From Sulfurimonas paralvinellae (GTDB taxonomy: Bacteria; Campylobacterota; Campylobacteria; Campylobacterales; Sulfurimonadaceae), in NCBI RefSeq assembly GCF_014905135.1, contig NZ_CP041406.1, positions 930,001 to 994,000 of the forward strand: a DNA stretch of 64,000 nt. Direction: 5' to 3'. The position numbers and the translations under genes were made by a program. The notes below the pieces were generated by a model. The model was not told where the DNA came from, did not search any database, and saw only the letters and a list, made by a program, of their open reading frames with translations. Below are positions 6,145 to 51,952 of this stretch, one piece after another; within the stretch, counting starts at the first letter, position 1, and every line of letters starts with the position of its first letter.

Positions 6145-6938
6145 CTAAAAGCCGCACTCATATAGCCGACGACCTGTGATTTGTCACCACTGGCATCTGC
6201 ACTTGTGCGATAATCCAGCAGAGTCGCTTGATAGCCTCTTTTTTTGGCGACATGCAGTATGGCTTCCACACCTATTTTTCCACACGCTTCACACCCCTGA
6301 TGTAACTCTGCAGGGTTGAGACTGGCGACGGCATCGAGGCAGATGCTGTCAAGTTTATTTGCTTTGTCGATGTCGTAGTAGTGACTCAGGTCTGTACTGA
6401 TAACGACGACAGTATCTTTGTCTTCTAAAAGATAGTCAATGATCTCTGCGAGATGTGCCGGATCTTCTTGACCATAAACAAGTTCTAGGACAGATACATC
6501 ACCCATATAGTTCTTGATAAAAGGCATTTGCACCTCTGTCGAGTGCTCTGCGTGAGCATCACTTTGAAATATAACTCCAAAGCGCTTCATTAATTCATCT
6601 GCTAAAGTGATGTCTATCTTTAAATTTCCAAAAGGTGTTTCGTAGCTGTCATATTTGGCTACGCTTACCCCCTTAAGATAGACCCGATGACTAGGTCCTA
6701 TGACAACCACACGTTTTGCATGCGTATTTTGCAGTACCCGAAAAGCGATGTTTGCCGTAAAAGCGGAGTAAACATACCCTGCGTGAGGTACAATGATGGC
6801 ACGTGGCTTGATCGCAAGAATGGATTTGTCCTGCAGGGCATCATCTATGATCTTGTTGTAATGATCGAACATTTGTGTTATCTCTAATTTGTCAACCGGA
6901 TAAAACTGTCCGGCAACAGCGTCTTTTCGTAAACTCAT
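6141..6938 (-). CDS. amrB: MEMO1-family protein (AmmeMemoRadiSam system protein B)
   Basis: The product has the MEMO fold, related to extradiol dioxygenases. It starts MSLRKDAVAGQFYP and contains IIVPHAGYVYS, IGPSHRVYL and STDLSHY, which carry the conserved His residues, then SGDKSQVVGYMS near the end. I chose the second ATG (6938) because AAGGAG lies 7 bases before it and only 1 base before the first ATG. That choice gives an ATGA overlap with the upstream radical SAM gene, so the two are translationally coupled. The biological reaction of the pair is not established. No AMMECR1 (component A) gene is present in the window. Confidence 0.88.
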   Translation of the reverse strand: MSLRKDAVAGQFYPVDKLEITQMFDHYNKIIDDALQDKSILAIKPRAIIVPHAGYVYSAFTANIAFRVLQNTHAKRVVVIGPSHRVYLKGVSVAKYDSYETPFGNLKIDITLADELMKRFGVIFQSDAHAEHSTEVQMPFIKNYMGDVSVLELVYGQEDPAHLAEIIDYLLEDKDTVVVISTDLSHYYDIDKANKLDSICLDAVASLNPAELHQGCEACGKIGVEAILHVAKKRGYQATLLDYRTSADASGDKSQVVGYMSAAFS

Positions 6939-7927
6939 TTCCATACTCCTTCTATCTCTCTGTTACATTTTGGACAGTGTCCGTCAACGAGCAGATTTTT
7001 CGTTATGCTGTAACCTGTTCTGTCTATTAAAAGTGTTCCGCAGTCCGGACAGTACGTGTCCCCATGAACAGGAACATTGCCTAAGTAAACATACTCAAGT
7101 CCTGCTTCTTTGGCAATTTTCTGTGCACGTTCCAAAGTCTGCAGTTTGGTGTACTCATGATCCTGCATCTTATAGTCAGGATGAAATGCACTCAAATGCC
7201 ATGGAACATGCTTTCCAAGTTCGTCGGCTATGAATGACGCCATAGCTTTTAAGTCTGCGTCACTGTCGTTTTCACCTTCGATGAGCAGTGTGGTTACCTC
7301 TACCCAGATACCTTCTTTAACCATGCCGCGAAGTGTCTCTTTGACAGCTTCAAGACCGCCTTTGAGTATTTTTTTATAGTAGGCATCATCCCAGCTTTTG
7401 AGGTCGACATTTGCCGCATCAAGCCAGGAAGCCATATCTTTGACAACTTCGGGTGATTCAAAACCATTGGTCACAAAGATATTTTTAAGACCTTTGGCTT
7501 TTGCAATAACCCCGATATCTTTGGCATAAGGGTAGAAGATAGTCGGTTCATTATAGGTATAGGCAATAGAATCCGATCCGTTTTCAATGGCCAACTCGAC
7601 CATTCGCTCCGGAGAGATGTATACACTCTCATCTACTTTTCGTTCCTGCGATATCTGCCAGTTTTGACAAAACGGGCATTGGAAATTGCACCCGACCGTT
7701 CCGAGTGAGAGAGCAGTAGTGCTGGGTAAAAGGTGGTAAAGAGGTTTTTTCTCGACAGGATCAACATTTAAAGCACTTGGATGTCCGTAAACAAGTGTTT
7801 TTAGCTCTCCGTTTTCATTTTTATTGACACCGCAGATACCGACTTGCCCCTCTTTCATCTGACAATAATGCTGACACAGTAGACACATAATTTTTTCTTT
7901 ATTAGGTATATTTTTATAATAGTTCAT
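6935..7927 (-). CDS. amrS: AmmeMemoRadiSam system radical SAM enzyme
   Basis: A radical SAM protein of 330 residues. The cluster cysteines are C80, C84 and C87 in GCNFQCPFCQNW. An N-terminal CLLCQHYC...GICGV segment carries further cysteines. The C-terminus has a zinc-ribbon-like CPDC...CPKC pair. This layout is that of the AmmeMemoRadiSam (PflA-related) family. GAGGAG lies 7 bases before the ATG. It forms a two-gene operon with the MEMO gene. The upstream side (above 7927) is the end of the cassette-like region. Confidence 0.9.
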   Translation of the reverse strand: MNYYKNIPNKEKIMCLLCQHYCQMKEGQVGICGVNKNENGELKTLVYGHPSALNVDPVEKKPLYHLLPSTTALSLGTVGCNFQCPFCQNWQISQERKVDESVYISPERMVELAIENGSDSIAYTYNEPTIFYPYAKDIGVIAKAKGLKNIFVTNGFESPEVVKDMASWLDAANVDLKSWDDAYYKKILKGGLEAVKETLRGMVKEGIWVEVTTLLIEGENDSDADLKAMASFIADELGKHVPWHLSAFHPDYKMQDHEYTKLQTLERAQKIAKEAGLEYVYLGNVPVHGDTYCPDCGTLLIDRTGYSITKNLLVDGHCPKCNREIEGVWK

Positions 7928-8098: not shown

Positions 8099-8233
8099 GT
8101 ATAACGGTCGAGTACAAAAATATGTTACCTCTTTTTGTAGTCTTTTAAGTTTTACAATGGTAGCTAAATCTTTAAGGTTTTTAAAGTTTAAAATCGGCGA
8201 GGGTAACATATTTTTGTTGCTACGATTTGTTAT
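8099..8233 (-). repeat. attC-like recombination site A
   Basis: On the minus strand this runs from ATAACAAATCG to CGACCGTTATAC and lies immediately 3' of the small membrane-protein gene. It contains a perfect 15-base inverted repeat, CAAAAATATGTTACC, with arms at 8115-8129 and 8202-8216 on the plus strand, and TAAC/GTTA at its ends. The first ~33 bases match the start of site B (ATAACAAAT... then AAAATATGTTACC). This is the architecture of integron attC sites: gene-distal, foldable, with conserved ends and a variable centre. The assignment is inference. Confidence 0.55.
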
Positions 8234-8242
8234 GTAGATAAC

Positions 8243-8440
8243 TCAGTCTCCTCCACCTGCATCACCACTAAATGAAGTATCAAAACTAGATGAATCATCT
8301 CTGTCAGAGTCCCCCGTAAAACCAGGGCTGTCTATCCCGATGCCACCTTTTTTATTTTCTTTATTAGTAGAAGTTGCATCAAAATATACCCATGCGAGTA
8401 TAGCAATTAGAATAATTATATATAAAAATATAGCATACAA
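8243..8440 (-). CDS. small membrane protein with acidic Ser/Gly-rich tail (cassette gene)
   Basis: A 65-residue product with one N-terminal TM helix (residues 3-19). A hydrophilic tail rich in Asp, Ser and Gly follows, ending SGDAGGGD. It is unknown as a family, but small proteins of this shape are common in gene cassettes. It follows the DUF6194-like gene by 54 bp in the same direction and is followed directly by attC-like site A, so the two genes probably share one cassette. Confidence 0.6.
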   Translation of the reverse strand: MYAIFLYIIILIAILAWVYFDATSTNKENKKGGIGIDSPGFTGDSDRDDSSSFDTSFSGDAGGGD

Positions 8441-8494
8441 AATAATTTCCTTTTATTCATCATCCAAGGATTTGTTAGCATTTGTATTATTCTA

Positions 8495-8944
8495 TTACTT
8501 TATTTTCTTATCAAACTTCTCAACAGCTAACCCATAACTTTCATCCAAAAAGTCTTTTATATCATCAAAGCTTTCCTTGGTTGGATTTAAAATACAAATC
8601 CAATTCATCCATCCATATATTGGATGTGGAGTAATCAAATCAAGTTCTTTAAAATTAAAACTACTTTCTATGATATCACCTTTGGCTGGTCGTTTAAATT
8701 TATTATTAAAAAGATTTTGAAAACTTTGCTTTGAAATTCCAATACTAAATCTAAACACATTGTCTCTATCTAAATATGATGCTTTATCATTATCTCCATC
8801 TTTTTCTTTGATAGTACAAAAATAAACACCATTTGGTAAAGCTTTATTTGGATTATAAAAAAATGAAGTTTCACCCCAACTTGATTTAGGGATTACTCCT
8901 TCAAAATTTTCAATGATATATTCTTTTATATCTTTTGGTGTCAT
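8495..8944 (-). CDS. DUF6194-like protein (cassette gene)
   Basis: A 149-residue cytoplasmic protein. The pattern W-GETSFFYNP, LDRDNVFRFSIGI, PHPIYGWMNWICILNP resembles the DUF6194 family, whose function is unknown (identification from memory of the family pattern). Its ATG is only about 14 bases after the GTTAGC end of attC-like site B, as expected for an integron cassette gene. It uses AT-rich codons and contains none of the TGCGTGAG octamers found in the backbone. Confidence 0.7.
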   Translation of the reverse strand: MTPKDIKEYIIENFEGVIPKSSWGETSFFYNPNKALPNGVYFCTIKEKDGDNDKASYLDRDNVFRFSIGISKQSFQNLFNNKFKRPAKGDIIESSFNFKELDLITPHPIYGWMNWICILNPTKESFDDIKDFLDESYGLAVEKFDKKIK

Positions 8945-8957
8945 CTCTTTATTCCTA

Positions 8958-9158
8958 TGCTAACGGCGAGGCTGAGCACCATCAAGATATAATCCAGAAA
9001 ACCCTTCGGGATTTTATGAATTATATCTTGATGTGTGTTCTCCTGTCAATTGTTGTATGTAGCGAAGTGAAATACAATAATCTGGCAAGAAGATGTATCT
9101 CACCATTGTATGTGTTCGTAAAGCGGTGGTAACATATTTTATTGCCGTTATTTGTTAT
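8958..9158 (-). repeat. attC-like recombination site B (long)
   Basis: On the minus strand it begins ATAACAAATAACGGC right after the stop of the 117-aa gene and ends GCCTCGCCGTTAGCA just before the next gene. TAACGGC/GCCGTTA form the outer pair. The inner part has a perfect 14-base inverted repeat, CATCAAGATATAAT, at 8980-8993 and 9020-9033, and a second imperfect hairpin near 9048-9081. About 200 bases is long for an attC; the half at 8958-9055 alone has a typical attC size, and the rest may be a remnant of another site. Confidence 0.5.
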
Positions 9159-9159
9159 A

Positions 9160-9513
9160 TTACTTGTTCTCATAAGCATCAAATGTTGCTGTAAAATAAT
9201 ACATTTTATCGGTTTGTTGCCATTGTATTTTATAATTTGCTACGCCGTCTAAGCCCTTTTCCTTGCAAATAGTATCTTTAAACCATTTTCTAGTATTCTT
9301 TTCAAATTCTTGATAAGCATCAAAGAAAGAAGTGTATTTAAATGTTTTTCCAGCGACTATAGGTATAGTTTGTAAATAATAACTTGAACCTGCGAATGTC
9401 ATTCTAGATAAATCTATTGGCGATGTCATTATGTTACAATCTTTTGCGAAACTGTTTGTTCCTGCTGATGCTATGAAGATTGCTATTAATAACTTTAGAC
9501 TAATTTTTTTCAT
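9160..9513 (-). CDS. small exported protein of unknown function (cassette gene)
   Basis: A 117-residue product with a signal peptide (residues 1-23, ending NSFA) and two Cys in the mature part (near residues 26 and 98) that could form a disulfide. I recognise no family. It is followed within 2 bases by attC-like site B, so it looks like the upstream cassette of the array. No attC-like site was found on its other side, where recN starts 227 bp away. Confidence 0.65.
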   Translation of the reverse strand: MKKISLKLLIAIFIASAGTNSFAKDCNIMTSPIDLSRMTFAGSSYYLQTIPIVAGKTFKYTSFFDAYQEFEKNTRKWFKDTICKEKGLDGVANYKIQWQQTDKMYYFTATFDAYENK

Positions 9514-9740
9514 GTTTTTTCCATGTTATAATATTGTAAATAAATAATCCTTTTCTTATATGACCATTTATTTAACAGATATTTTATCCAAAACTATTTT
9601 ATAAATCAAATTTAACAAACATTATAATTATATGTTAATCATTGAAATTATTGCATTATGTCATATTTTTGGTATATATTTTAAATAATAGCTATTATAC
9701 TTAAAAATAAAATGTGTTTTTATTATAAAAAGGCAAAAAA
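9514..9740. other. AT-rich intergenic region before recN
   Basis: A very AT-rich stretch between two divergent genes. It presumably holds both promoters; I see no attC-like site, tRNA or terminator. Confidence 0.4.
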
Positions 9741-11273
9741 ATGATAGAAAGATTTTACTTAAAAGATTACCTTAGTTTTGAAGAGAGTGAGCTTGAGCTG
9801 AAAAGTGGGCTTATTGTTTTTACGGGGCCGAGTGGGAGTGGGAAGTCCATACTTATGGAGTCCATTTTGTCTTCTGTTGGTGGATCTTCGTGTGATGCTT
9901 CTGTTTGTGAGTCGAGTGTCACATGGGAGATAGATGAGGATGCCTGCGGGATAGAAAACGATGATATCAATGTCTTTAAGCACATCAAAAAAGAGAAGTC
10001 ACGTTACTTTATCAACAACCAATCTCTCTCACGCAAGGCCATTTCTGCTGTAGCTTCAAAGTATCTGCGTCATTTGAGCTTGAAAGATTTTTCTGACTTT
10101 GAAAATGAGAACCTGCTCAATATCTTGGATGCGCGCATCGAAGCGAAGTCACATGACATCATGGCTTTAAAAGAGAAATATAGAGAGACATTTACAGAGT
10201 ACCACTGGACGCAGCATGAACTGCAGGTCATAGAAGAGGAAGAGAAAAAGATAGTTGAACTCAAAGAGTTTGCGGCCTTTGAGATACAAAAGATCGAAGA
10301 TGTCAATCCTGCTGCAGGTGAAGATGAGGATCTTTTGGAGATAAAAAAAGAGCTCTCACGCAAGGAGAAAGTGCTTGAGAGCATCGGTGGGGCTACGGAG
10401 ATATTTAACTATGAGCACTTGGTCTCATCGGCTTTGGAGAGTTTGGATGTGGAAAGCAGCTTTTTTGATGATGCCATGAATGAACTGCGTGCTGTTTTTG
10501 ACAGTGCAGAGGAGCGATTTAATGCGCTTGAAGATGTAGATGTAGAAGAAGTTCTTAACCGCATTGAAGAGCTTGGCGGCTTGAAGCGTCGTTATGGAAG
10601 CATTGAAGAGGCTTTGGAGTACAAAGAGCAGAAGAAAATAGAACTAGCAAAGTATGAGAACATAGAGATAGAAAAACATGGTCTTGAGCAGAAGTACGAG
10701 CAGTTGTCAGAAGAAGTTACGGCTTTGGCCGATGAACTCTCAAGCCTGCGTGAGGCAGAGCTGCCGTTTTTTGAAGCAGATCTCAATGCTTACTTGAAGA
10801 GTCTCTATCTGCGTGAGGCAAAAGTTACAATGCAAAAGAGATCATACGACAAAGCAGGGCAGGATGCAATCAACATAGAGCTAAGCGGTACAAAACTGGA
10901 CAAGATCTCTACGGGGGAGTTCAATCGTCTTCGCTTGGCTGTACTGGCACTCAAGTCAGAATTTATGAATAAAAACGGCGGTGTATTGATGCTTGATGAG
11001 ATAGATGCAAACCTCAGTGGTGAGGAGTCTATGAGTGTGGCAAAAGTGCTCAAAAAGCTCTCCAAACATTTTCAGATCTTTGTCATTTCACACCAACCGC
11101 AGCTTACTTCCATGGGCGATCAGCACTTTTTGGTCTATAAAGATGGTAATATTTCAAAAACAAAAGAGCTCAACTTGCAAGAGCGTGTTGATGAGATAGC
11201 AAGAATCATTAGTGGTGAAAACATCTCAGACGAAGCGAAAAAATTTGCAAAAGAGCTTCTGGAGGCAAGTTAG
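9741..11273 (+). CDS. recN: DNA repair protein RecN
   Basis: An SMC-like ATPase involved in double-strand-break repair. The Walker A GPSGSGKS (residues 29-36) lies in the N-terminal half-ATPase. A long charged coiled-coil region spans roughly 140-360. The C-terminal half carries STGEFNRLRLAVLAL (signature-like) and Walker B VLMLDEIDANLSG. At 510 residues it is slightly shorter than E. coli RecN. The stop TAG is directly followed by the tatD ATG, which suggests co-translation. Four TGCGTGAG octamers lie in this gene. Confidence 0.94.
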   Translation: MIERFYLKDYLSFEESELELKSGLIVFTGPSGSGKSILMESILSSVGGSSCDASVCESSVTWEIDEDACGIENDDINVFKHIKKEKSRYFINNQSLSRKAISAVASKYLRHLSLKDFSDFENENLLNILDARIEAKSHDIMALKEKYRETFTEYHWTQHELQVIEEEEKKIVELKEFAAFEIQKIEDVNPAAGEDEDLLEIKKELSRKEKVLESIGGATEIFNYEHLVSSALESLDVESSFFDDAMNELRAVFDSAEERFNALEDVDVEEVLNRIEELGGLKRRYGSIEEALEYKEQKKIELAKYENIEIEKHGLEQKYEQLSEEVTALADELSSLREAELPFFEADLNAYLKSLYLREAKVTMQKRSYDKAGQDAINIELSGTKLDKISTGEFNRLRLAVLALKSEFMNKNGGVLMLDEIDANLSGEESMSVAKVLKKLSKHFQIFVISHQPQLTSMGDQHFLVYKDGNISKTKELNLQERVDEIARIISGENISDEAKKFAKELLEAS

Positions 11274-12050
11274 ATGATAATAGATACACATATACATTTG
11301 GATGATGCAAGATATGATGAAGATTTGGATGATGTTCTAGATCGTGCGCGTGAGGGTGGGGTAGAGCGTTTCATCATTCCAGGTGCAGATATAAGTACGC
11401 TTGAAAAAGCTGTCGGCATAGCCGAGAAGTATGATGATGTCTATTTTGCAATTGGTGTGCATCCTTATGACAAAGAGGGGTATGATGAGAGCTATTTTAC
11501 CAAGTATGTCGGGCATGAGAAGTGTGTGGCTATCGGTGAATGCGGGATGGATTACTTTCGTTTAGAAGGGAGTGATGAGGAGAAAGAGCGCGAGAAAGAG
11601 GAGCAAAAGAGAGTCTTTGTTGCGCAGATAGAACTGGCAAAGAGGTACAAAAAGCCGCTTATAGTACATATTCGCAATGCTTCACATGATGCAAAGATGA
11701 TACTTTTAGAACATAATGCCGGTGAAGTCGGCGGTGTTCTGCATTGTTTCAATGCTGATGACGAGCTTTTAAGTCTGGCGGATGAGAACTTTTATTTCGG
11801 TATTGGCGGTGTGCTGACATTTAAGAACGCTAAGAAGCTTGTAAATATACTGCCTCGCATTCCAAAAGAGAAGTTAATTATTGAAACAGATGGGCCGTAT
11901 CTCACGCCGACACCTCACAGAGGGGAGAGAAATGAGCCGTTTTATACAACATTGGTTGCTGATAAAATGGCAGAATTACTCAATATGTCCCGTGAAGAAA
12001 TTGAAAATTTGACCACGCAAAATGCCCTAAAACTCTTTCATATTTCTTAA
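11274..12050 (+). CDS. tatD: TatD-family metal-dependent DNase
   Basis: A 258-residue TIM-barrel hydrolase. It has the metal-binding DTHIHLDD at the start, AIGECGMDYF, VHIRNASHDA, LHCFNAD and LIETDGPYLTP, all TatD hallmarks. The family has 3'-5' exonuclease and RNase activity linked to repair and RNA quality control. It abuts recN with no gap, as in C. jejuni (recalled), except that the cbrR regulator found there is absent here. Confidence 0.93.
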   Translation: MIIDTHIHLDDARYDEDLDDVLDRAREGGVERFIIPGADISTLEKAVGIAEKYDDVYFAIGVHPYDKEGYDESYFTKYVGHEKCVAIGECGMDYFRLEGSDEEKEREKEEQKRVFVAQIELAKRYKKPLIVHIRNASHDAKMILLEHNAGEVGGVLHCFNADDELLSLADENFYFGIGGVLTFKNAKKLVNILPRIPKEKLIIETDGPYLTPTPHRGERNEPFYTTLVADKMAELLNMSREEIENLTTQNALKLFHIS

Positions 12051-12124
12051 TATTAGCTCGTTTACAACTTTTTTTAATGAATTTTTAGATAAAATCTACA
12101 AAAATTTAATAAAAAAGTTGCCTA

Positions 12125-13351
12125 ATGATAATAAGATATTTAATTACACTATTTTTCCCTTTCGTTCTTTTTGCAAACCTCACTTATGATGTAAATACAG
12201 ACAAAGAGTTAGAGCTTTTAAACTCTTTTGACATAGAACCCTCATTTCTTTATGACCCGGTCATGAACAGCATGAAAAGAAAGACGCTTTCAAAGGACAA
12301 ACACTTCTTTCGTGCGATGAAAGATGCGTATCTCTTTATACCTGCCATTAAAAATACACTCTCAAAATATGACGTACCGCAGGAGTTTTTGTACCTTGCT
12401 ATGGCAGAGTCGAACTTTCATACAAAAGCCTATTCTAAAAAACGTGCAGCAGGTCTATGGCAGTTTATGCCGGCTACAGCGAAACATTTTCATTTAAAAA
12501 TTGACGAATACGTTGATGAGCGACGTGACCTTATCAAGTCAACTGAAGCTGCTGCAAAATATCTCTCCGCGCTTCACAAGCGTTTTGGAAAGTGGTACTT
12601 GGCTGCCATTGCGTACAACTGTGGCGGCGGAAGACTGAATCAGGCGATTAAAAAAGCGGGTACGGACGACCTTGCTGTTCTTTTGGATCAAAAAAAGAAG
12701 TACATTCCACGTGAGAGCAGAAACTATATTCGTAAGATCGTTGCACTTGCTTTGATCGGCAGTGATGAGCAGTATTTACTGCATAGTGAGTACGAATACC
12801 TTTTAAATCGTGCAAATGCTTACTCAATCTCTACCGTAAAGCTTTCAAGCGGAGAGTCATTGGCTAGAATCTCAAAGCTCATCCATATTCCGTTAAAAGA
12901 TCTCAAAAAGCTTAACAGACACCTGAAATATGACTTCGTTCCGCCATATAAAAAAGGATGCAATGTCTACATTCCATACATCAAGTTGGCAGAATTCAAG
13001 CAAAAGTATACAAAAGAGTCTATAAAAAACATCTACAGAGTACATGTTGTCACTCGAGGGGATAATCTTTCGTACATCGGTAAAAAGTATGGTGTCTCTT
13101 ATCGTGTCATCAAAGATTTCAACCATTTGAAAAGCAACAGGCTTCATTTAAAACAAAAGATCATTATTCCTATTCCTAAAAAAAGTGCGCTTAAAAAGAT
13201 ATCTTCGAAGCATTACTATATGGTTAAAAAAGGAGACTCTTTGGAGTCTATAGCAAAGGCACACAAAATAAGTGTTCAAAATATACGCCTGCAAAACCAT
13301 ATTCGCGGTTCTTTGATAAGAGTCGGGGACAGGTTGAGATTATATGAGTAG
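12125..13351 (+). CDS. mltD: membrane-bound lytic murein transglycosylase D-like, with LysM
   Basis: An exported peptidoglycan lyase of 408 residues. A signal peptide covers residues 1-17. The SLT domain contains the catalytic Glu (E95, in LAMAESNF) followed by [15 protein letters not shown] and [12 protein letters not shown]. Two LysM peptidoglycan-binding repeats lie at about 302-345 and 362-408. Its 3' end overlaps rlpA by 8 bp, so these two wall-remodelling proteins are coupled. There is no clear lipobox, unlike E. coli MltD. Confidence 0.92.
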
Positions 13352-14171
13352 AAGTCTCTGTTTTTTAGCAATAGCGACGCTCTTTTTTAGTGCCTGTAGT
13401 ACAAGAGGGCCGGGGGCATTCAGAAGTTACAACTATGCACCATCTTCAACATCAAAAACATACTGTGACGATAAAAGTGCCTACTGTGCAACGCCGCCGA
13501 AAAAGAAGTACTCAAAAGCGACGATGCGTCCTTATGTCGTTCACGGGAAAAAATACTATCCGCAGGTTGTCAGCGTAGGAGATACTTTCCGTGGGAATGC
13601 AAGCTGGTATGGTCCGAACTTTCATGGAAAATATACATCTAACGGTGAGAGATACAATATGTGGGCAATGACAGCGGCACACAAAACACTGCCGATGAAC
13701 ACCATTGTAAAAGTGACCAACAGAAGAAACGGAAAAAGTACTGTTGTGCGTATTAACGACAGGGGTCCATTTGTCTCTACAAGGATCATTGACCTTTCAA
13801 AAGCAGCGGCTTCGAAGATAAGTATGATTGGAACGGGGACTGCTCCTGTGACTTTGGAAGTGCTTGGGTTTGAAGGAAAAGGCAAGCGAAGTATTCCAAC
13901 GAAAAAAGAGCTGAAAAAGTTACCGCAGAAGATGTCCATGACAGGAAAATATGCAATTCAAATCGGTTCATTTTCCAAGATACAAGGCGCACTGCTCACG
14001 CAAGAGAAGTATGACAATACGGATGGATATAAAACCATCATCAAAGATGTGGATGGTGATGACGGGCGTATGTTTAAGGTATGGTTGACAGGTTTTAAAG
14101 GTGAGCAGGAAGCCAGAGACTATAAAGCAAACGGAAAATTTAGAAATGCATTTATTGTACGGGAGGATTAG
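13344..14171 (+). CDS. rlpA: RlpA-like septal ring lytic transglycosylase lipoprotein
   Basis: A 275-residue lipoprotein with lipobox FSAC (lipidated Cys at residue 18). A double-psi beta-barrel domain is seen as [19 protein letters not shown] through INDRGPF and [10 protein letters not shown]-terminal SPOR domain (about 205-275, from [11 protein letters not shown]) binds denuded glycan at the septum. It lies between the MltD-like gene and hisB. The SPOR domain suggests septal localisation. Confidence 0.92.
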
Positions 14172-14174
14172 AGG

Positions 14175-14747
14175 ATGATAACAAAGACGAGAACAACAAA
14201 AGAGACAGATATAACAGTAGCGATGGATATCAATGGAGTCGGGAAAAGCAATATAGATACAGGTGTGGGTTTTTTAGATCACATGCTTGAGAGTTTTTCA
14301 AAACACTCGTTGATCGATCTTGACATCACTTGTAAAGGTGATACGCACATAGATGACCACCACAGTGTAGAAGATGTTGGTATTGTGTTGGGTTCTTTAC
14401 TTGCTGAAGCTATTTATCCTGTGCAAAATATGGAGCGTTTTGGGAGTGCAAATATTGTTATGGATGAAGCCTGTGTGAGCTGTGATCTTGATCTTTCCAA
14501 TCGTCCATTTTTGGTTTATGAACTTGATGTCCACGGAAAAGTAGGGCAGTTCGATACGGAACTTGTTGAAGAGTTCTTTAGAGCCTTTGTTTTGAATGCA
14601 CGTATTTCAATGCACATCATAGAGTTGCGAGGAAAGAACAAGCACCACATCATTGAAGCGGCTTTTAAAGCTGTAGCCGTAGCCATTCGCCGTGCAACAG
14701 CAAAAAATGAGCGTGTCGGTATACCTAGCACGAAAGATGTTCTATGA
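14175..14747 (+). CDS. hisB: imidazoleglycerol-phosphate dehydratase
   Basis: Catalyses the sixth step of histidine synthesis. The 190-residue protein is the monofunctional form. Its two metal-binding repeats are seen as GFLDHMLESFSKH...HIDDHHSVEDVGI and MHIIELRGKNKHHIIEAAFKA. It overlaps kdsC by 4 bp. No other his gene is near, so a biosynthetic gene sits inside an envelope operon here. Confidence 0.95.
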   Translation: MITKTRTTKETDITVAMDINGVGKSNIDTGVGFLDHMLESFSKHSLIDLDITCKGDTHIDDHHSVEDVGIVLGSLLAEAIYPVQNMERFGSANIVMDEACVSCDLDLSNRPFLVYELDVHGKVGQFDTELVEEFFRAFVLNARISMHIIELRGKNKHHIIEAAFKAVAVAIRRATAKNERVGIPSTKDVL

Positions 14748-51200: not shown

Positions 51201-51312
51201 ATGAACAATCGTTCATACTTGCTAAAACATACATGAACATCTGTTCTTTTTAACTAAGGATATATTAACACTTGTTCATATATAATTAGAGATATATTAA
51301 CAAATGTTCATA
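51201..51312 (+). promoter_or_regulatory. operator array for the TetR regulator
   Basis: Four related sites precede the tetR-family gene. Two are palindromes: ATGAACAATCGTTCAT (51201-51216) and ATGAACATCTGTTCTT (51233-51248). Two are direct copies, ATATATTAACNNNTGTTCATA, at 51260-51280 and 51292-51312, spaced 32 bp apart. The shared core is TGAACA-N2-TGTTCA or its TGTTCA half. Autoregulation is likely; the array also lies close to the rnpB promoter. Confidence 0.7.
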
Positions 51313-51331
51313 ACAGAAAAAGGAGCTTGAA

Positions 51332-51952
51332 ATGTCGCAAAACAGGGATATAAATAAAGGAACAAAAACAAAAGAAAAAATCTTAAAAGTAGCTGCTTCT
51401 CTCTTTTCTCAGCTGGGATATAGAGGTGCAAGTGTACGTAAGATAGCTGCAGAAGTAGGCATAAGAGAGAGTGCTCTTTACAATCATTTTAAAAACAAAG
51501 AAGAGATATTTTTAGAAGTAGCAAAAGACATATTTTCATCGCCCTTCTCTCTTTCAAATGATGAGATTAAAGAGTTAGCATTACGAGGGAAGCCATTTTT
51601 GCAAAAGTTTACTATGCAGTATAAAATGCTTACATTTGATAAAAGCAACGAAGGCATGTTTAGACTACTCATGATCGAACTTATGCAAAATAGACTGCTT
51701 AGAGAGCAGTTTATAAGTGAATTTCATAACAAGAATATTAAAACGCTCTCAGAGGGCTTTTTTATCATGATGCAGAACTCTTTGATACGTTCTAGTGATC
51801 CTATGTTGGTTGCATATGAGTTTATAAGCACCCTATTCTACATACGATTGCAAGTAACAATGTTGAAATTTGATGCCAATTCTGTTAATCATTTGTCAAC
51901 ACAATTTGAAAAACATGTGGATTTTTTCTGGGAAAGCATTAAAATAGGATAG
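51332..51952 (+). CDS. TetR/AcrR family transcriptional regulator
   Basis: A 206-residue repressor. The N-terminal HTH is seen in ILKVAASLFSQLGYRGASVR followed by KIAAEVGIRESALYNHFKNKEEIF. The C-terminal ligand domain is unspecific. AAGGAG lies 7 bases before the ATG. No efflux pump or enzyme gene lies beside it in the same direction, so its targets other than itself are unknown. Confidence 0.92.
   Translation: MSQNRDINKGTKTKEKILKVAASLFSQLGYRGASVRKIAAEVGIRESALYNHFKNKEEIFLEVAKDIFSSPFSLSNDEIKELALRGKPFLQKFTMQYKMLTFDKSNEGMFRLLMIELMQNRLLREQFISEFHNKNIKTLSEGFFIMMQNSLIRSSDPMLVAYEFISTLFYIRLQVTMLKFDANSVNHLSTQFEKHVDFFWESIKIG

Follow-up and report, generated by a model that had tools for sequence, protein, structure and literature searches.

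The stretch of DNA analysed here (the window, 64,000 nucleotides, positions 930001-994000 of contig C1 in a two-contig, 2.08-Mb genome rated 100% complete) carries between amrS and recN what is, with a probability of about 0.92, a resident chromosomal integron of a Sulfurimonas lineage that has become integrase-less (CALIN) through deletion of its integrase gene, intI, in place. This reading is built on the identity of the recombination sites, the absence of intI from the genome, a remnant of the attI region, the junction at which intI is missing and the gene order in sister genomes, all of them observed directly. An earlier note on the same DNA had proposed that a CALIN was inserted between amrS and recN. 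The integron reading and the lack of intI have been upheld, but the array was not inserted as an orphan cluster; it occupies its original locus, from which intI has been deleted.

Layout of the locus and cassette genes

RecN places the window with Sulfurimonas, the nearest named genomes being a Sulfurimonas MAG (L012, 89%), a symbiont MAG (L011, 88%) and S. indica NW8N (L013, 84%). On the minus strand, from recN toward amrS, three ORFs of 117, 149 and 65 codons are found, with foldable sites after the first and the third; these are the three small same-strand ORFs that the earlier note had described. The features of the locus are the following:

6935-7927, minus strand: amrS (AmmeMemoRadiSam radical SAM enzyme; TIGR04337, 369 bits against a cut-off of 220)
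8099-8235, minus strand: attC site A, intact, of the ~130-nt type, with its core from TAAC at 8232 to GTT at 8103 (covariance model and alignment)
8243-8440, minus strand: cassette gene 3, a 65-aa protein with an N-terminal membrane-type segment and a Gly/Asp/Ser-rich tail (ORF)
8463-8480, minus strand: truncated attC between cassette genes 2 and 3, left end alone, (TGC)TAACAAATCCTTGGA, with TAACAAATCCTTGGA at 8463-8477
8495-8944, minus strand: cassette gene 2, a DUF6194 protein of 149 aa (PF19694, 161 bits against a cut-off of 27)
8959-9158, minus strand: attC site B, a composite that has probably decayed (its halves match two attC types)
9160-9513, minus strand: cassette gene 1, a 117-aa protein with a signal-peptide-like N-terminus (ORF; no known family above cut-off)
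9560-9727, no strand assigned: attI/intI-promoter remnant (alignment to relatives)
9727-9740, plus strand: intI deletion scar and recN ribosome-binding region, with one copy of the AAAARGCAAA microrepeat left (both flanks align to G047)
9741-11273, plus strand: recN, the anchor gene (SMC_N/RecN match)

As in a cassette array, the genes are short, lie on the same strand and point away from attI and intI; the attC after gene 2 is a fragment. This orientation agrees with that of the relatives, in which intI faces recN and the cassettes are on the other side. On its distal side the array is bounded by amrS, as is that of S. indica (L013, 430-1422).

All three cassette genes have the look of accessory cargo and are orphans, or nearly so, in the family. 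The 117-aa protein has weak relatives in four other family genomes. The DUF6194 assignment already suggested for gene 2 is borne out by Pfam, and this family is present in one of 228 family genomes, that is, absent from all the others. The 65-aa protein, the tail of which is acidic and glycine-rich, resembles the YxzE-like putative bacteriocin family PF25184 (E 5e-6, 27.9 bits), below the curated cut-off of 40. Searches of the cargo with PADLOC, NCBIfam and PDB sequences returned no function, and no defence family was matched. None of the three proteins has a match in the arrays fetched from relatives.

Identity of the attC sites

Regions beside intI were taken from 20 relatives and screened for AAC...GTT palindromes. 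Their arrays contain dozens of regularly spaced sites of 61-66 nt together with a type of ~130 nt, TAACAAATCGTAGCAACAAAAATATGTTACC ... GGTAACATATTTTTGTACTCGACCGTT, the arms of which match site A almost letter for letter; the identity of site A to an attC of L135 reaches 90% over 134 bases. Copies of this longer type differ past a conserved CGTT (ATAT, ATGT, AGCT, GTAC, GCCT), and such variable bases are expected of cassette junctions. By its homology to these sites of integrase-bearing arrays, site A is a genuine attC.

The covariance model used (R2), which stands in for IntegronFinder, was made from ten attC of intI-bearing Sulfurimonas arrays, with the window left out. It gives site A 146.5 bits (E 2e-29), bearing out the attC call by the kind of search that the earlier note had advised. 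This is the single strong R2 match in the genome; the second match is the same palindrome on the other strand. A weak match at 51295-51421 (21 bits, E 0.037), in which several stem pairs are broken, was taken as chance. Among the 228 family genomes, R2 matches are found in 53. The 130-nt type required this separate model; that of the short attC (61-66 nt) is devoid of base pairs, because MAFFT fails to align the palindromic centres, and it detects the ends of site A alone, weakly. In Rfam no family calls the sites, the best being microRNA families far below threshold that reflect the hairpin alone.

Site A begins ~10 bases past the stop of the third ORF (TAAC from 8232). It contains a perfect 16-bp inverted repeat (8114-8129/8202-8217), and its fold has z = -4.7 against dinucleotide shuffles, 0 of 200 shuffles being as stable. 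The attributes of an attC, namely an imperfect palindrome with R''/R' ends (AAC...GTT) that is foldable as a single strand, are present in site A by both fold and alignment. The site is fully conserved in sequence and fold, and an IntI provided in trans could in principle still recombine it.

Site B starts 2 bases past the stop of the first ORF (ATAAC at 9158). Between its end and the next ATG (8944) there are ~15 bases. The placement of A and B after the stops, their foldable centres and their common start of ~33 bases had all been reported earlier and were found again in this analysis. The common start, TAACAAAY-N(10-25)-TATGTTACC, occurs at these two places alone in the 2.08-Mb genome, its reversed control giving 0 matches, and site B, like A, folds far better than its dinucleotide shuffles (z = -4.8; 0 of 200 as stable). 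The earlier report of two attC-like sites stands in that A is genuine and B is real, but B does not simply repeat A. Its first ~35 nt resemble the A type, and its last ~115 nt (8961-9075) resemble the attC of a different Sulfurimonas cassette (L140), with 73.5% identity to the L140/L032 attC over 117 nt (E 3e-11). The palindrome of site B consists mainly of the outer AACGGC/GCCGTT and a 3' hairpin pair. Site B is best read as a putative composite, which would have arisen by deletion or aberrant recombination of an A-type attC with a second attC.

Where one would look for a third attC, from the DUF6194 gene to the 65-codon gene, only the left end of a short attC remains, in agreement with the 5' end of short Sulfurimonas attC. 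The motif TAACAAAWCCTTGGA, in which one position may be A or T, has no second copy in the 2.08-Mb genome; it lies at this truncated site, on the cassette strand. Site A alone is a textbook attC, B fits no single type and the third is a fragment, so that strict calling might yield one or two sites. The revised list thus comprises one good attC (A), one composite (B) and one truncated, plus the attI remnant; the truncated attC (8463-8477), the remnant (9560-9727) and the intI scar (~9727-9740) extend what had been listed for this locus before. In S. indica, half an attC of the site-A type (L013, 3288-3338; 79% over 53 nt) lies inside its own locus, a further sign of attC decay.

The attI remnant and the deletion scar

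Sixteen relatives have, upstream of intI, a region to which the segment 9560-9727 can be aligned. Against G047, where this region lies beside an intact intI, the identity is 87.8% over 172 nt, with an alignment score of 240, where 300 dinucleotide-preserving shuffles reached no more than 44. The remnant stops 46 bp before the first cassette gene, the attI boundary having been placed by conservation, and its attI edge, ACCATTTATTTAAC, corresponds to ACTATTTATTCAAC in the relatives. A promoter-like TATTAT is kept at 9693-9698, which in A+T-rich DNA is weak evidence (6 matches against 3.2 expected).

Directly beyond the remnant, positions 9728-9752 align to the junction between the end of intI and the start of recN. 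In G047, intI is followed by recN, the two starting at 2814 and 3843 of its locus, and the left and right flanks of the scar both align to G047 across AAAAAGCAAA / AAAAGGCAAA. In G047, the two sequences that are joined at the scar read AAAAAAAGCAAAT (left) and TTAAAAGGCAAAG (right), and a single copy, TAAAAAGGCAAAA, is present in the window. The location of the junction within this short repeat (AAAAAGCAAA / AAAAGGCAAA) suggests a deletion by slippage or microhomology across the AAAARGCAAA microrepeat.

It has to be noted that the attI region is 88% identical to that of G047, with a RecN identity of 77%, and that L012 and L013, which are nearer by RecN, have ~70% attI identity. Lineages may have exchanged the attI-intI module before intI was lost. 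Since the best attI match, G047, is not the nearest by RecN, the exact sequence that this lineage carried before the deletion is one that we infer.

Absence of an integron integrase

No match to TIGR02249 above its cut-off of 265 was found in the 2.08-Mb genome, the best being of 59.8 bits. With sister IntI as query, short partial matches were obtained genome-wide, none of them full-length, and the best (47 bits) corresponds to a C-terminal tyrosine-recombinase segment. The search covered the whole genome, and no integron integrase lies near the array, as in a CALIN; the functional intI of a complete integron has been deleted. The genome-wide searches for intI and for the shared site that the earlier note had put forward thus ended with no intI and with the site pattern at two places. 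IntI above cut-off is present in 62 of 200 family genomes. The second contig, of 49.8 kb and possibly a plasmid, encodes a 332-aa tyrosine recombinase (G000:C2, 33764-34282) that is distant from IntI, with 31 bits to TIGR02249.

intI at recN in related genomes

Of the recN loci that bear intI, most have this gene 14-18 bp upstream of recN (last IntI codon to recN start) and in the same direction, and in the sister genomes attI and the cassettes are on its far side from recN. At loci other than recN, the gene next to intI is often convergent with it. The operon-like spacing is found in L012 (2890-3869), L013 (5022-6001), L018, L019, L021, L022, L026, L029, L030, L032 and L141, the IntI of L012 and L013 reaching 417 and 408 bits, respectively, against the integron-integrase model. 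In S. indica the other side of the locus is closed by amrS, 4.6 kb from recN. The comparison with sister genomes, also advised earlier, places intI arrays at the same recN locus, and it has changed the proposed history to one of loss in place.

The RecN tree, of 41 rows, joins the window to L011 and L012 (100/98 support), both with intI at recN, that of L011 being cut by a contig edge. The clade of 27 rows to which it belongs comprises 14 loci with intact intI, 7 with broken intI and 5 without intI, in addition to the window. The broken genes (L014, L015, L016, L020, L023, L027, L034) retain recognisable reading frames or C-terminal tails, and their damage consists of internal deletions, frameshifts, insertions and C-terminal stubs. 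The presence of intI at recN is probably ancestral to this clade, having decayed several times, and the window is the cleanest intI loss seen.

A survey of the 3' neighbours of intI covered 30 loci, 28 of them with a neighbour ORF. The neighbour is recN in six, and in seven (L095, L097, L101, L102, L103, L106, L117) intI is convergent with an ileS-like gene, named by eye from the protein sequence, which constitutes a second recurrent anchor. The relatives' arrays also contain ORF-less mini-cassettes of ~152 nt, occupied nearly entirely by a long G+C-rich attC after a small hairpin (e.g., GTTGTCTGAA...TTCAGACAAC). These recur within and between arrays: L131 (four copies, about 10650-14632), L125 (three), L124, L126, L133, L135 and L139.

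Origin of the array

We infer the order of events, the deletion mechanism and the loss of function as follows. The ancestral order would have been amrS - cassette array - attI/intI promoter - intI - recN, with intI and recN co-directional and 14-18 bp apart, and with the cassette genes directed away from intI. In the simplest account, one deletion of ~1.1 kb, which began shortly past the promoter region of intI and reached its stop codon, would have taken the 5' leader and the whole coding sequence, keeping the ribosome-binding site of recN, which would now stand directly behind the attI/promoter remnant. Without IntI, the array would be unable to take up, shed or shuffle cassettes on its own, the three genes would be fixed, and it should be static apart from ordinary mutation or the action of IntI in trans. 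Unused sites would then erode, site B having turned composite, the middle site having lost its right half and the attI edge having mutated, with A remaining intact; the damage to B and to the middle site fits disuse.

A simple insertion of the cluster between amrS and recN was rejected on account of the attI remnant and of the order in sister genomes. It is highly improbable that an IntI from another locus or cell inserted the cassettes at a site that never had its own integrase, even taking into account that off-target insertion is among the proposed origins of CALIN (PMC8618304) and that the genome is now devoid of detectable intI. An off-target (attG-type) array has neither attI nor a former intI; here, however, an intI-recN scar is present, the remnant, which has 88% identity to a region adjoining an intact intI, ends at the intI-recN junction, and the nearest relatives have intI at the same spot. 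A reading outside integrons, in which A and B are a dispersed REP- or MITE-like palindromic repeat that flanks small genes by chance, is barely credible: the shared 33-base start and the hairpins are what such a repeat would give, but there are two copies in the whole genome, and the same sites serve as attC beside intI, with variable bases after CGTT.

The array might also be still in use, its cassettes being mobilised in trans by foreign IntI from plasmids or transient elements. Functional IntI can mobilise CALIN cassettes (PMC12444791), and the conservation of site A in sequence and fold is consistent with this. Nevertheless, the other sites are composite or truncated, as disuse predicts, and the 49.8-kb second contig has merely the distant tyrosine recombinase (31 bits to TIGR02249), which makes continued use unlikely. 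The deletion of a resident intI in place is thus the preferred explanation.

Comparison with known integrons

The locus exposes a conserved, recN-anchored integron in Sulfurimonas, in which intI precedes a repair gene in an operon-like arrangement. Among the papers searched, none reports intI adjoining recN, an absence that is weak evidence. No match to the LexA DNA-binding domain above cut-off was found in the window genome, and this makes intI regulation outside the LexA paradigm testable. Judging from the gene arrangement, it is conceivable, though doubtful, that in a clade of Sulfurimonas intI and recN would form one transcription unit, coupling cassette shuffling to DNA repair without LexA. 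If this were true, the window would represent a naturally occurring knock-out, with recN in the place of intI behind the intI promoter.

The intI of Xanthomonas, which has its anchor at ilvD, was inactivated in most lineages by stops, frameshifts or large deletions, leaving arrays without integrase (PMC12444791). The recN-linked system resembles the ilvD-intI one in the location of intI beside one conserved housekeeping gene, in mostly vertical inheritance and in repeated inactivation (PMC12444791). It differs in its anchor, recN, which lies downstream of a co-directional intI, and in that the coding sequence of intI is fully gone, with a readable scar and an attI remnant in its place. With the intact recN-linked integrons (S. 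indica NW8N, L013; G047, L141/L133), the window has in common the locus, the attI/promoter region and the recN junction, and the attC type of site A is common in other Sulfurimonas arrays; by contrast, those integrons keep IntI, and the three cassette proteins of the window are unmatched in the fetched arrays.

The locus agrees with CALIN as defined for IntegronFinder, that is, attC sites and cassette genes with no intI nearby or in the genome, and its few cassettes are those expected of degraded integrons (PMC9024848). The loss of a recognisable intI is one published route to CALIN (PMC8618304), and S. autotrophica already appears in a survey as a carrier of In0 and CALIN elements (PMC10295459). 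CALINs are common and can arise in more than one way, so where a given one came from is usually uncertain; unlike CALINs in general, this one has a resolved origin, loss in place, and one fully intact site only. Sisters with an intact intI at the locus, several intermediates in which it is broken, and the scar and attI remnant of the window make this origin readable, base by base. In sum, the array is a relic of a known kind, and what is unusual in it is the completeness of the readable event and the anchoring at recN.
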